A stretch of DNA of 64,000 bases, from positions 496,001-560,000 of the forward strand of contig PUDQ02000001.1 of the NCBI GenBank assembly GCA_002964805.2. The letters are read 5' to 3'. A program made the translations under genes and the position numbers. How positions within the stretch are numbered: the stretch's first letter is position 1; each line of letters opens with the position of its first letter. This DNA comes from Trametes villosa. Lineage: Eukaryota > Basidiomycota > Agaricomycetes > Polyporales > Polyporaceae. Below the pieces are notes generated by a model. That model did no database searches. It had not been told where the DNA came from and saw only the letters and a list, made by a program, of their open reading frames with translations. This document shows positions 36,119 to 40,831 of the stretch, piece by piece.

Positions 36119-38255
36119 ATGGGCATCGTGGAGAAGGTGAGCAATGCGGCGCGGGCCCGCACACACGTCTGTGGCTGAAGGACTGCCGCCTTTAGATCAA
36201 GGAAATCGAGGGTGAGCACCCTCCACGTTCATGCGAGCATGGAAGACGGTATTAAAGGCGGCCGCGATCGCAAATAGAGGAGATGGCGAGGAGTAAGCAT
36301 GCTTCACGTCCCTCGGCGGCGAAGAGTGCTAACCCTCGAGCGCTCGCATCTAGCGCAGAAGAACAAGGTGGGCATATGCTGCACACCGCTCGCCGATCGA
36401 GCGACTAAGTATAGCACCAAGTAGGCAACGGAATATCACCTTGGTCTCCTGAAGGCGAAGCTCGCGCGATACCGTGCGCAGCTCCTTGAGCCCACTTCCA
36501 AGTCTGGAGGCGCAGGCACTGGCTTCGACGTCCAGAAGTCGGGAGACGCTCGAGTTGCACTGATCGGCTTCCCTTCAGTGGGCAAGGTGCGCCTCTCGCA
36601 TTGCATATGCACATGCTACGCTTATCTCCCATCTTTGCAAATAGTCGACACTGCTCAGCAAGTGCACGCACACGCAGTCCGAATCTGCCGCATACGAGTT
36701 CACAACACTCACGGTGCGTTCGCCCGAAGGCCATCGCAGGCCGCCGCTCATGACGTTAATAGGCAATTCCCGGCGTCCTGGAATATCAAGGCGCGCGCAT
36801 ACAGCTGCTCGATCTCCCGGGTATCGTCGAGGGAGCTAGTGAGGGTCGCGGTCGCGGGCGACAAGTCGTAGCGACCGCTAAAACCGCCGATCTCATCCTC
36901 ATTATGCTCGATGCGACGAAGTCGGAGGAGCAGCGGCGGCTGCTCGAGATCGAGCTTGACGCGGTCGGTATTCGGCTCAACAAGAAGAAACCTGACGTTG
37001 TTTTCAAGCGCAAGACCACCGGAGGCGTAAGTACTGCGAGCATGTCGCGATCCGTATCCTTGGCTGAGATGACCCCGTCATGCACAGATTACGGTAAGAT
37101 TGGCTCGTCTTCCGCGGGCCCTGTGCGGACATTGACAGCCATATCAGATCAACAAGACCGTACCATTGACCAAGACCGACGAGAAGACCATCCGGACTAT
37201 CTTGGCCGGCTGTAAGTGGTGTCCGCACGAGGCACGAGGCCCGCCCTATTCATTCTTCCCGCTACGGCGTAGACAAACTGCACAACTGCGACATAATGAT
37301 CCGGGAAGACGTAGGTTCTGTCCTGCCCGCCGATACCATTCGCAGCTGACAGCGGGAAAGATCACGACCGACGAATTCATCGATGTATTGATAGGTGCAT
37401 CTTGTGCAGCGCGGCCACGAGGCGTTCTGGTGCTGATACCCTGCCGCAGGAACCCGCAAATATCTACCATGCCTGTGTAAGCAGCGCCCTGCATCGTGTC
37501 CTGCCGTCGTGCTCCACTTATGCCCCTGAAAAGATGTTTACAACAAGATTGACGCTATCAGCCTCGAGCAGATGGACAAGCTCGCCCGAGAAGACCACAC
37601 GGTCGTGATCAGTTGCGAGCTGGGGCTCAAGTGGGTGCTTCCCGCAGCGCTGCGCGCACTAGGGCGACTGCACGGTACTCACGCGGCATCGCAATACGCA
37701 GCCTGGACTATCTCATCGAGAAGATCTGGGAGGAGCTTGACCTCGTGAAGGTGTACACCAAGAAACGGGGCGTGCACCCCGATCTCGACGACCCCGTCTG
37801 CCTCAGAAAGGGCGCCACAGTCGAGGTGCGTCGGACGCGTACCGCTCGTCGCAGCGCCCATGCCCGCCGGTACCCGGCTACCGAAACGGGCGTCCTGATG
37901 CCTTCCGCCACAGAGCGTCTGCAACGGCATTCATCGGTCGCTCGCGACAAACTTCCGATACGCTTTGGTTTGGTGAGTGCAGACGCCACAAACAGTTTGT
38001 GGGCCGCCAGCTGACCGTTCCGGCAGGGTGAGCGCGCATCAGCGCGGTGCGGCTGCAGACGGGCTGACATCGGGCCTAGGGCAAGTCATCGAAGTTCAAT
38101 CCGCATGCGCAGAAAGTCAGCCTGCACCATCACGTCCTAGACGAGGACGTAGTGTCAAGTACGTTACCGGCCGTGGGCGGCGTGTGCGCGCTCCTCGCGC
38201 TCCTAGCGCACATTCTCAGACTAATGGGCGGCGTTTGACAGTCTTCACGAAGTGA
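36119..38255 (+). CDS. RBG1: Developmentally regulated GTP-binding protein 1 (DRG1/Rbg1), translation GTPase
   Basis: Obg-like GTPase that binds ribosomes with a Dfrp1/Tma46 partner and relieves stalled translation. Eighteen exons give 366 residues, the normal family length. The first four are 18, 16, 15 and 14 nt (36119-36136, 36196-36211, 36278-36292, 36354-36367). Then come 36425-36586, 36645-36713, 36763-37026, 37088-37093 (6 nt), 37148-37211, 37273-37310, 37361-37394, 37450-37476, 37534-37630, 37702-37825, 37914-37972, 38027 (1 nt), 38080-38158 and 38242-38255. Motifs: N-terminal [22 protein letters not shown]1 GFPSVGKST, switch YEFTTLTAIPGVL, G3 [10 protein letters not shown]4 NKID, and a C-terminal TGS domain starting near [17 protein letters not shown]. 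The 1-nt exon restores the VWGK reading; without it the frame shifts and soon stops. Confidence 0.92.
37088..37093 (+). other. RBG1: Six-nucleotide micro-exon of RBG1
   Basis: ATTACG sits between TGCACAG and GTAAGA, separating introns of 61 and 54 nt. Inclusion gives [12 protein letters not shown]. As I recall Rbg1 proteins, the distance from GGI to TVPLT then fits. Skipping is also in frame and removes two residues, so both forms are possible. Confidence 0.7.
38027..38027 (+). other. RBG1: Single-nucleotide exon of RBG1
   Basis: A lone G lies between GGCAG (acceptor) and GTGAGC (donor). The upstream intron (37973-38026) is 54 nt and the downstream one (38028-38079) is 52 nt. Each has a CTGAC branch point about 11 nt before its AG. 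The upstream exon ends in phase 2 with TG, and the downstream exon must start at GGC to read [12 protein letters not shown]. Only an added G gives TGG GGC (W-G), as in other DRG1 proteins. Confidence 0.78.
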
Positions 38256-38888: not shown

Positions 38889-40831
38889 ATGGGCTCCATC
38901 GACGCGCTCTCACCTTCGCTCACCGACGATGTCGAGTTCATCCTCCTCGGCACCGGCACCTCCTCCACCGTCCCGCACGTCGACTGCCTCACCGCGCCGC
39001 CGGGCGCGAAGAAGTGCCGGACGTGCTGGTCGACGCTGCACCCCGAGGGGAAGAAGAACATCCGGGTGCGCACTCTTTTTTCTGCGGCGAGCGCGTCCGC
39101 TCCGTCGCCCCGGCCTGGCGCTGACTCCGCCGGATCTCATCATGATAGCGCAATACCTCCGGGGTCGCGAGGGTCCGCGCGCAGAACGGCGAGCTCGTGT
39201 GAGTGCACATTGTCCGCCCTCTCAGGACCCGCCGCGTCCGCGCGAGATTTTGGCTCTCAATTGCCAGGATCGTTCGTGCGATGAGGCGTTTTGGGTTCGG
39301 CAAACCCCGTCGAGGATCCTCCCTCTCCTCGTTCTCCGCCCTCCCATGTGCTTGCCTCGGAGACGGCCATGCGCTTCCCAGGATCCCCGGTATCCTGTTC
39401 AAGTTTACCCACCCCTGGACACGCCCTGAAGGGCTCGGAATATGCCAGGCATCGCCGCGCATGCTGCGAGTCGGTGGCGGCATGAGTGCCGTCTGAATGT
39501 GGCGTCGGAGTTCTGGTAGAAATAACCAGTGCCACCTCTGGATTCCTACTTTGTGCACGCCTCGTGCCCTCATCTCCGCTACCAAATGCTGACATTGCTC
39601 GCGGGGATGCAGGACGATTGTAATCGATGTCGGGAAGAGCTTCCAACAGGCCGCAGTCGAGTGGTTCCCGCAATACGACCTCCGCAAGATAGATGCCGTG
39701 CTTATTACACACGCCCATGCGGACGGTATGTCCGGCTTCCATGTCTATTATCTTCGCGGGAGCGCTTACGCTCGACTCCGAAGCCATGAATGGACTAGAC
39801 GACCTCAGAGGTGCGCGCCGGTTTTCTTGTGGCGCTGTGGCATGATGATTTAACGTTACCGTAACTTCTAGGGTGGACGCTGCACGGCGCTATCCAGCCT
39901 CATGTGGACCTGTACGTCTCCCTTGAGACTTTCCAGGAGGTCGGCAGGGCATTCCCCTACCTCATCTCGAAGGAGTTCGCCTCCGGCGGCGGCGACGTGA
40001 GTGCCCTTGCGCAGATCCTCTCTCACCCGGGGCAGCTCCGTTGAATTCGCCGCGACAGGTGCCGGAGTTCAATTGGCACATCATTGAAGACCGGAAGCCG
40101 TTCACCATCGGCGACACCGGCATCGTCGTCGACCCGTTCAAAGGTGCGCGTGTGCGAACGCAATCAAACGTGCCTGCGACTAAAACTGACTGGCATGATC
40201 CTCGGACGCCCCAGTCCACCACGGCCGTGTCTTCTCCGCGCCCCCGGTCGACTTCACGCCGAGCCCGAACTCGGTATCGCCCGCGTCCACCCAGCCGTCG
40301 TCGCCGGGCCAGCCGGGCACGCCTGTGCACGAGCGCGCGCTCACCCCGTCGAGCGAGCCCGTCAAGGAGATCTTCCCCTACCTCTGCTTTGGGTTCACGA
40401 TCCAGAACGCCGTGACGTACATCTCGGACGTCTCGCACATTCCCGAGCACGTCTGGGAGCACATCTCCGCGTCCTACGCGGCTGCGTACGCCTCCGGGCG
40501 GCCGCCGGTGCTCGTGCTCGACTGCCTGCGGCTCGAGCCACACACGTCACACCTCAGCCTCGCGCAGGCGGTGGACATTGCGCGGCGGATGGGCGCGCGC
40601 AAGACGTACCTGACCGGGTTCAGCCACGAGGTCTCCCACGAGGAATACCGGACGATATTGGAGAAGGTGGGAGGGCGGACGCCACCGCAGGAGGAGTTCA
40701 CGGAGATGGTGAGGCGTGGCCTGGGGACGCTCGAGGACGGCCCGCCGGTGTGGGTGCGCCCGGCGTTCGATGGGCTGCGCGTGTTTGTCTCGCCCGACGG
40801 GAAGGAGGTGCACGACTCCGAGTATGTTTGA
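38889..40831 (+). CDS. Metallo-beta-lactamase-fold hydrolase
   Basis: Seven exons (38889-39065, 39149-39198, 39613-39725, 39784-39810, 39872-39996, 40059-40143, 40215-40831) give 397 residues. The MBL fold opens with VEFILLGTGTSSTVPHVDC. The metal motif reads ITHAHADAMNGLDDLR, with Ala where HxHxDH has its last His, as in many PhnP/phosphodiesterase-like members. Later metal-ligand candidates are the Asp in TYISDVSHIPE and the His in LEPHTSHL. A CxxCW pair (KKCRTCW) near the N-terminus may bind a structural metal. A short Pro/Ser insert (PSPNSVSPASTQPSSPGQPG) marks a variable loop. The fold is clear, but the substrate is not. Intron 2 is 414 nt, several times the norm, with no missing family block across it. 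Confidence 0.85.

Follow-up and report, generated by a model that had tools for sequence, protein, structure and literature searches.

The window, a 64,000-nucleotide stretch of Trametes villosa DNA, carries an RBG2/DRG2 GTPase gene that is divided into many small exons. The gene model and the features around its sixteenth exon are listed below.

36119..38255, forward strand: RBG2/DRG2 gene, 18 coding exons, 366 aa
Exons 1 to 9 of the gene: 18, 16, 15, 14, 162, 69, 264, 6 and 64 nt
Exons 10 to 18 of the gene: 38, 34, 27, 97, 124, 59, 1, 79 and 14 nt
37914..37972, forward strand: exon 15, ending in Y-A-L-V-TG, phase 2
37973..38026, forward strand: intron 15, 54 nt, GTGAGT...CGGCAG, CTGAC at 38011-38015
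38027..38027, forward strand: exon 16, a single G, third base of a Trp codon
38028..38079, forward strand: intron 16, 52 nt, GTGAGC...GCCTAG, CTGAC at 38064-38068
38080..38158, forward strand: exon 17, G-K-S-S-K-F-N-P..., the rest of most of the TGS domain
38242..38255, forward strand: exon 18, 14 nt, last coding exon, contains the stop

A domain search identified MMR_HSR1, MMR_HSR1_Xtn and TGS domains in the encoded protein, which matched yeast Rbg2 (PDB 7nrc) at 477 bits versus 402 bits for Rbg1 (4a9a). With its GTPase, Xtn and TGS domains and its greater proximity to Rbg2, the protein belongs to RBG2/DRG2, and not to RBG1/DRG1 as the original prediction had it. The RBG1/DRG1 orthologue of this genome (46.7 Mb, 140 contigs) is located on another contig (C110, locus L001); a 100-aa piece of it scored 133 bits with Rbg1 versus 78 bits with Rbg2, and its V-W-G codons are contiguous, without an interrupting intron. 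We did not find a second RBG2/DRG2 copy in the T. villosa genome. The numbered names among the best 120 of 7810 protein matches all say 2, and the highest identities in that set were those of Trametes punicea (95%) and Polyporus arcularius (94%). Two JGI records among the best 120 of 148 matches to a query with the Val-Trp pair lost carry the name GTPase 1.

Tiny exons are numerous in RBG2/DRG2 (1, 6, 14, 14, 15, 16 and 18 nt). The coding exons of 18, 16, 15 and 14 nt lie at the start of the gene (36119-36367); the 6-nt exon at 37088-37093 reads ATTACG, encoding Ile-Thr.

Reading frame and splice sites around G38027

Exon 15 ends in TAC GCT TTG GTT TG at 37972 and is followed directly by GTGAGT. 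The sequence CGGCAG ends at 38026, the G is at 38027 and GTGAGC begins at 38028; intron 16 closes with CCTAG at 38079, before GGC AAG from 38080. In both introns the A of CTGAC is 12 nt from the intron end. A direct join of 37972 to 38080 gives W-A-S-H and runs into a stop after 19 codons; addition of G38027 restores the frame through ...DEDVVSIFTK to the natural stop. We enumerated the reading frames between exon 15 and the natural stop with GT-AG introns of at least 40 nt and obtained 44 in-frame solutions (6 with a single intron and 38 with two), only one of which, the pair 37973-38026 and 38028-38079, yields the sequence of the family. Inclusion of GC donors raised the number to 677 (17 single and 660 double) with the same sole match, and none of the single canonical introns between 37972 and 38080 yields the conserved YALVWGKSS. 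One base separates an AG from a GT, with a complete intron on either side, and this base is needed for the frame of the conserved protein. These results uphold what had been claimed for the locus: that one intron does not keep the frame, that acceptor and donor are one base apart between introns of 54 and 52 nt that each contain CTGAC, and that the added G gives TGG GGC, the Trp-Gly expected at this position. As an observation on the sequence, the arrangement that predicts a one-nucleotide exon is confirmed as real.

The remaining 15 introns of the gene range from 49 to 88 nt (mean 62, SD 11), making a single intron of 107 nt an outlier. We scored splice sites with a matrix built from these 15 introns. 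The two donors proved to be the best two of 11 nearby GT sites (9.03 and 6.06 bits; the next scored 2.98). The acceptors speak less well for the model: the one at 38026 has 1.79 bits, the lowest among the 17 of the gene and eighth of 12 nearby AGs, and the one at 38079 has 2.52 bits, seventh of the 12, so that six other AGs in the stretch outscore both, a point against the arrangement. Since 7 of the 17 modelled introns contain CTRAY, the occurrence of CTGAC in both introns lends modest support. The role of chance was simulated with 60,000 gaps drawn from a first-order Markov model of the introns of this gene. None combined YAG-G-GTRNG with two introns of 45 nt or more and a CTRAY close to each acceptor, a criterion picked after the site was seen; the bare motif occurred in 268 gaps. 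We also considered an origin of the two introns by duplication and rejected it, as their similarity ranks 24th among 136 intron pairs and 46% of 2000 shuffles score as well. We conclude that G38027 is very probably a constitutive one-nucleotide coding exon of RBG2/DRG2.

Annotation errors in homologous proteins

Homologues were collected as the best 120 of 7810, 148 and 7405 matches of three protein searches, giving 167 distinct proteins that are a sample and no census; the query of the 148-match search had the Val-Trp loss and favours that class. The source tags divide them into 122 annotated proteins and 45 others. Removal of P0006 (unaligned here), P0013 and P0026 (on contigs of more than 14 kb) and P0166 (an ENA entry on a 43-kb contig) from the 45 leaves 41 short-contig homologues, which probably represent cDNA, as their frames are unbroken; V-W-G is read by 40 of the 41.

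For every intron position, indels no more than 3 residues away were tallied across the best 120 of the 7810 matches. The site of the one-nucleotide exon carries indels in 40 of 95 annotated homologues, a count from a list that favours intact proteins, and no other place from residue 10 to residue 359 is as badly affected. Among the 25 non-annotated proteins there were two such cases, P0006 (unaligned) and P0073 (which runs into an intron). The last intron, beside the 14-nt exon, has indels in 24 of the 95 and the two introns flanking the 6-nt exon in 23, compared to 1-14 at the 12 introns that lie apart from the one-nucleotide, 6-nt and last exons. Annotation errors thus track tiny exons, and the one-nucleotide exon most of all; the counts at the last intron and the 6-nt exon are a useful positive control, and the latter exon seems to be often mis-modelled likewise.

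A gene finder that is unable to place a one-nucleotide exon has to mend the frame in another way, and the way chosen can be read from the codons. Where an exon ending in TG precedes GTNNGT, a donor placed 4 nt further on extends the exon by a TNN codon. The 13 single-residue inserts are always Y, C, S, L or W, all possible TNN codons; by codon count, the odds that 13 of 13 fall in the set F, L, S, Y, C and W are about 3 in ten million, a figure that assumes independent draws, which related species are not. A further eight annotated proteins have Cys in place of Trp (TG followed by Y), two end at the Trp, as TGG TRA would give, and three have Trp and then a TNN residue in a longer run. A fourth such case, P0156, was set aside because its Ser more likely derives from an acceptor inside the next exon. 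Altogether, 26 of the 122 annotated homologues imply an exon that ends in TG, one base short, ahead of a GGC in phase 0. With a GTRAGT donor the same shift would create a stop, so that the GT of the Val codon becomes the next choice; exactly this loss of Val-Trp is found in 20 of the 122. The 13 longer inserts before GKSS or GRSS end in Arg in four cases (AG+G in that frame), in Gln in six (CAG before GGC) and otherwise in three. The two Termitomyces annotations agree with each other, P0133 shifting the donor (Ser) and P0049 carrying a segment Ser...Asp-Arg before GKSS.

Judged from one representative looked up for each, the proteins that imply TG come from at least seven orders of Agaricomycetes (Polyporales, Boletales, Russulales, Hymenochaetales, Gomphales, Geastrales and Agaricales). 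Clean sequences were found in 55 of the 122 annotated homologues, a class that takes in outsiders (a mosquito, Cryptococcus, Phaffia, Mixia and Calocera), and 12 read Trp-Val; five rows classed as 'other' and three unparsed ones were not used in the class counts. The clean proteins may lack the exon, be correctly annotated or use a full TGG, and the Trp-Val proteins may have an ordinary TGG|GT intron or a model that retains the second intron; some species may thus be without the one-nucleotide exon. The nearest relatives are split, Polyporus arcularius being clean and Trametes and Lenzites showing the Val-Trp loss, and the fungi outside the Agaricomycetes (Calocera, Phaffia, Cryptococcus and Mixia) are clean. 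Searches for the DNA of relatives returned no confirmed relative among viral contigs and 31 loci titled archaea or bacteria among genome contigs. The protein patterns suggest that DRG2 has likely retained the one-nucleotide exon in many Agaricomycete orders, perhaps from near the base of the class. Its reach, age and position in relatives are what we infer from these sequences, the reach and age because the clean and Trp-Val proteins are ambiguous and P. arcularius is among the clean.

Alternative explanations of the locus

The same mRNA would result from one non-canonical intron, either TG-AG (37974-38079) or GT-TA (37973-38078), and no one-nucleotide exon would then exist. Since TGG GGC is produced in each case, cDNA alone would not separate the models, and the cDNA test offered with the original prediction is not decisive. 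The weakness of both acceptors in the two-intron model also favours such an intron. However, its TG donor scores -11.5 bits versus 6.06 and 9.03 for the canonical pair, its length is 4 SD over the mean, and it leaves the inner AG-G-GT with two fitting introns unexplained, and we consider it improbable. A single intron from the weak donor GTTTGG at 37968 would be in frame and would give YAL-GKSS without Val-Trp, which is the product of 20 of the 122 annotated models. This donor scores -6.05 bits, compared to at least 6.06 for each of the 17 others, and V-W-G is present in yeast Rbg2 as well as in 40 of the 41 short-contig homologues, making the reading hardly credible.

An error of assembly could have removed a G from TGG|GTGAGT or TAG|GGGC, in which case the gap would be one ordinary intron of 107-108 nt. 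The junction does have short runs of G, and the genome offers no second copy for comparison. Yet an intron of that length would stand out in this gene, AG-G-GT would have to be put down to coincidence, and 26 of 122 homologues, annotated independently, imply that the same base is missing; given these homologues and the V-W-G of 40 of the 41 short-contig proteins, an assembly error appears highly unlikely.

Splicing, function and known one-nucleotide exons

How a constitutive exon of one base would be spliced, and in which order its introns leave, we infer from the sequence. Both splice sites of such an exon could hardly be occupied at once, and the introns of 52-54 nt would each be recognised alone, by intron definition, and be removed one after the other. 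Removal of intron 15 first would leave TGG|GTGAGC, with a donor that should still be usable (7.62 bits, within the range of the gene); removal of intron 16 first would leave CAG|GGGC. Both orders would lead to the TGG GGC (Trp-Gly) of the TGS domain, and no special machinery would be needed if short introns are recognised whole and removed in sequence. It is probable that the arrangement is old and common to many Agaricomycete orders; it may have been kept because Trp, here part of a conserved motif, has no codon other than TGG.

Skipping of the exon is predicted to shift the frame and cut the TGS domain, in agreement with the earlier expectation of a truncated GTPase. The stop of the skipped product would be 18 nt before the last junction. 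The usual rule for decay is 50 nt, so that decay of this mRNA is not assured. According to the available text of PMC8629797, deletion of the TGS domain of yeast Rbg1 reduces ribosome association, suggesting that inclusion of G38027 should be important for function. It had also been proposed that the exon acts as a switch, its inclusion or skipping setting the amount of full-length RBG2, an idea that adds to the constitutive exon and does not compete with it. The truncation fits this idea, and a microexon switch is described for Trichoderma Xlr2 in the accessible part of PMC11121469. The skipped form occurs in none of the 41 short-contig homologues, 40 of which represent the included form, P0073 reads into an intron, and the frame-shifted annotated models are indistinguishable from prediction errors. 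The proposal of a switch is therefore not supported and we regard it as of low probability.

That a one-nucleotide exon was already in print is correct, but the single Arabidopsis report named in the original prediction is an incomplete account, as the portions available of PMC8831610 and PMC12940212 describe such exons in APC11 and VPS55, conserved in land plants, and in Fusarium CYP621A. The authors of the last present it as the second example and the first in fungi, a tally that, in the text available of PMC12940212, omits VPS55. The CYP621A exon resembles ours in being a G in AG-G-GT of a fungal gene, in a gap roughly double the length of a usual intron, and in restoring a conserved motif that public annotation had mis-modelled. 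It differs in being the second base of a Gly codon in an ascomycete P450, in one genus and with RNA reads (PMC12940212, as far as available), whereas the RBG2 exon is the third base of a Trp codon in a basidiomycete translation GTPase, is apparently shared by many orders and is known from sequence. The exons of APC11 and VPS55 are likewise constitutive or conserved and were missed by annotation (PMC4674806 and PMC8831610, in part), and the authors of the APC11 work also propose sequential splicing by intron definition. Unlike the RBG2 exon, that of APC11 is an A in a plant gene and was proved by mutation (available text of PMC4674806), and in plant VPS55 some forms contain the exon and others lack it (available text of PMC8831610).

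Fungal stwintrons, in the descriptions accessible to us, are also two adjoining short introns removed in turn. The RBG2 site is not a stwintron: in a stwintron an inner intron splits a donor, branch or acceptor element of an outer one and no base between them is retained, whereas the GT and AG ends of introns 15 and 16 are intact and a single base has to be retained. The exon of one base pair in placozoan mitochondrial cox1 is like the RBG2 exon in size (PMC5436844, part of the text). Mitochondrial exons of this kind are not known to be spliceosomal.

Among the literature matches listed, which lie largely outside subscription journals and were available in part, there was no report of a one-nucleotide exon in a basidiomycete or in DRG2. 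The RBG2 exon would be a further nuclear one-nucleotide exon, of a kind already known, and apparently the first in a basidiomycete within the literature searched. If the reading is true, no other one-nucleotide exon known from fungi would be as widely shared, public databases would systematically contain wrong DRG2 models on account of it, and basidiomycetes would join plants and Fusarium in having exons at the absolute lower size limit. The many species could serve as natural replicates of how a short-intron spliceosome keeps one base, and would also allow one to ask how one-nucleotide exons originate and disappear, and in how many genes they lead to wrong models. Hidden tiny exons may be detectable without DNA, from clusters of annotation errors combined with codon logic.

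Downstream of RBG2/DRG2, an open frame at 38890-39080 begins MGSIDALSPSLTDDVEFILLGTGTSSTVPHVDC and presumably resembles a metallo-beta-lactamase-fold protein.
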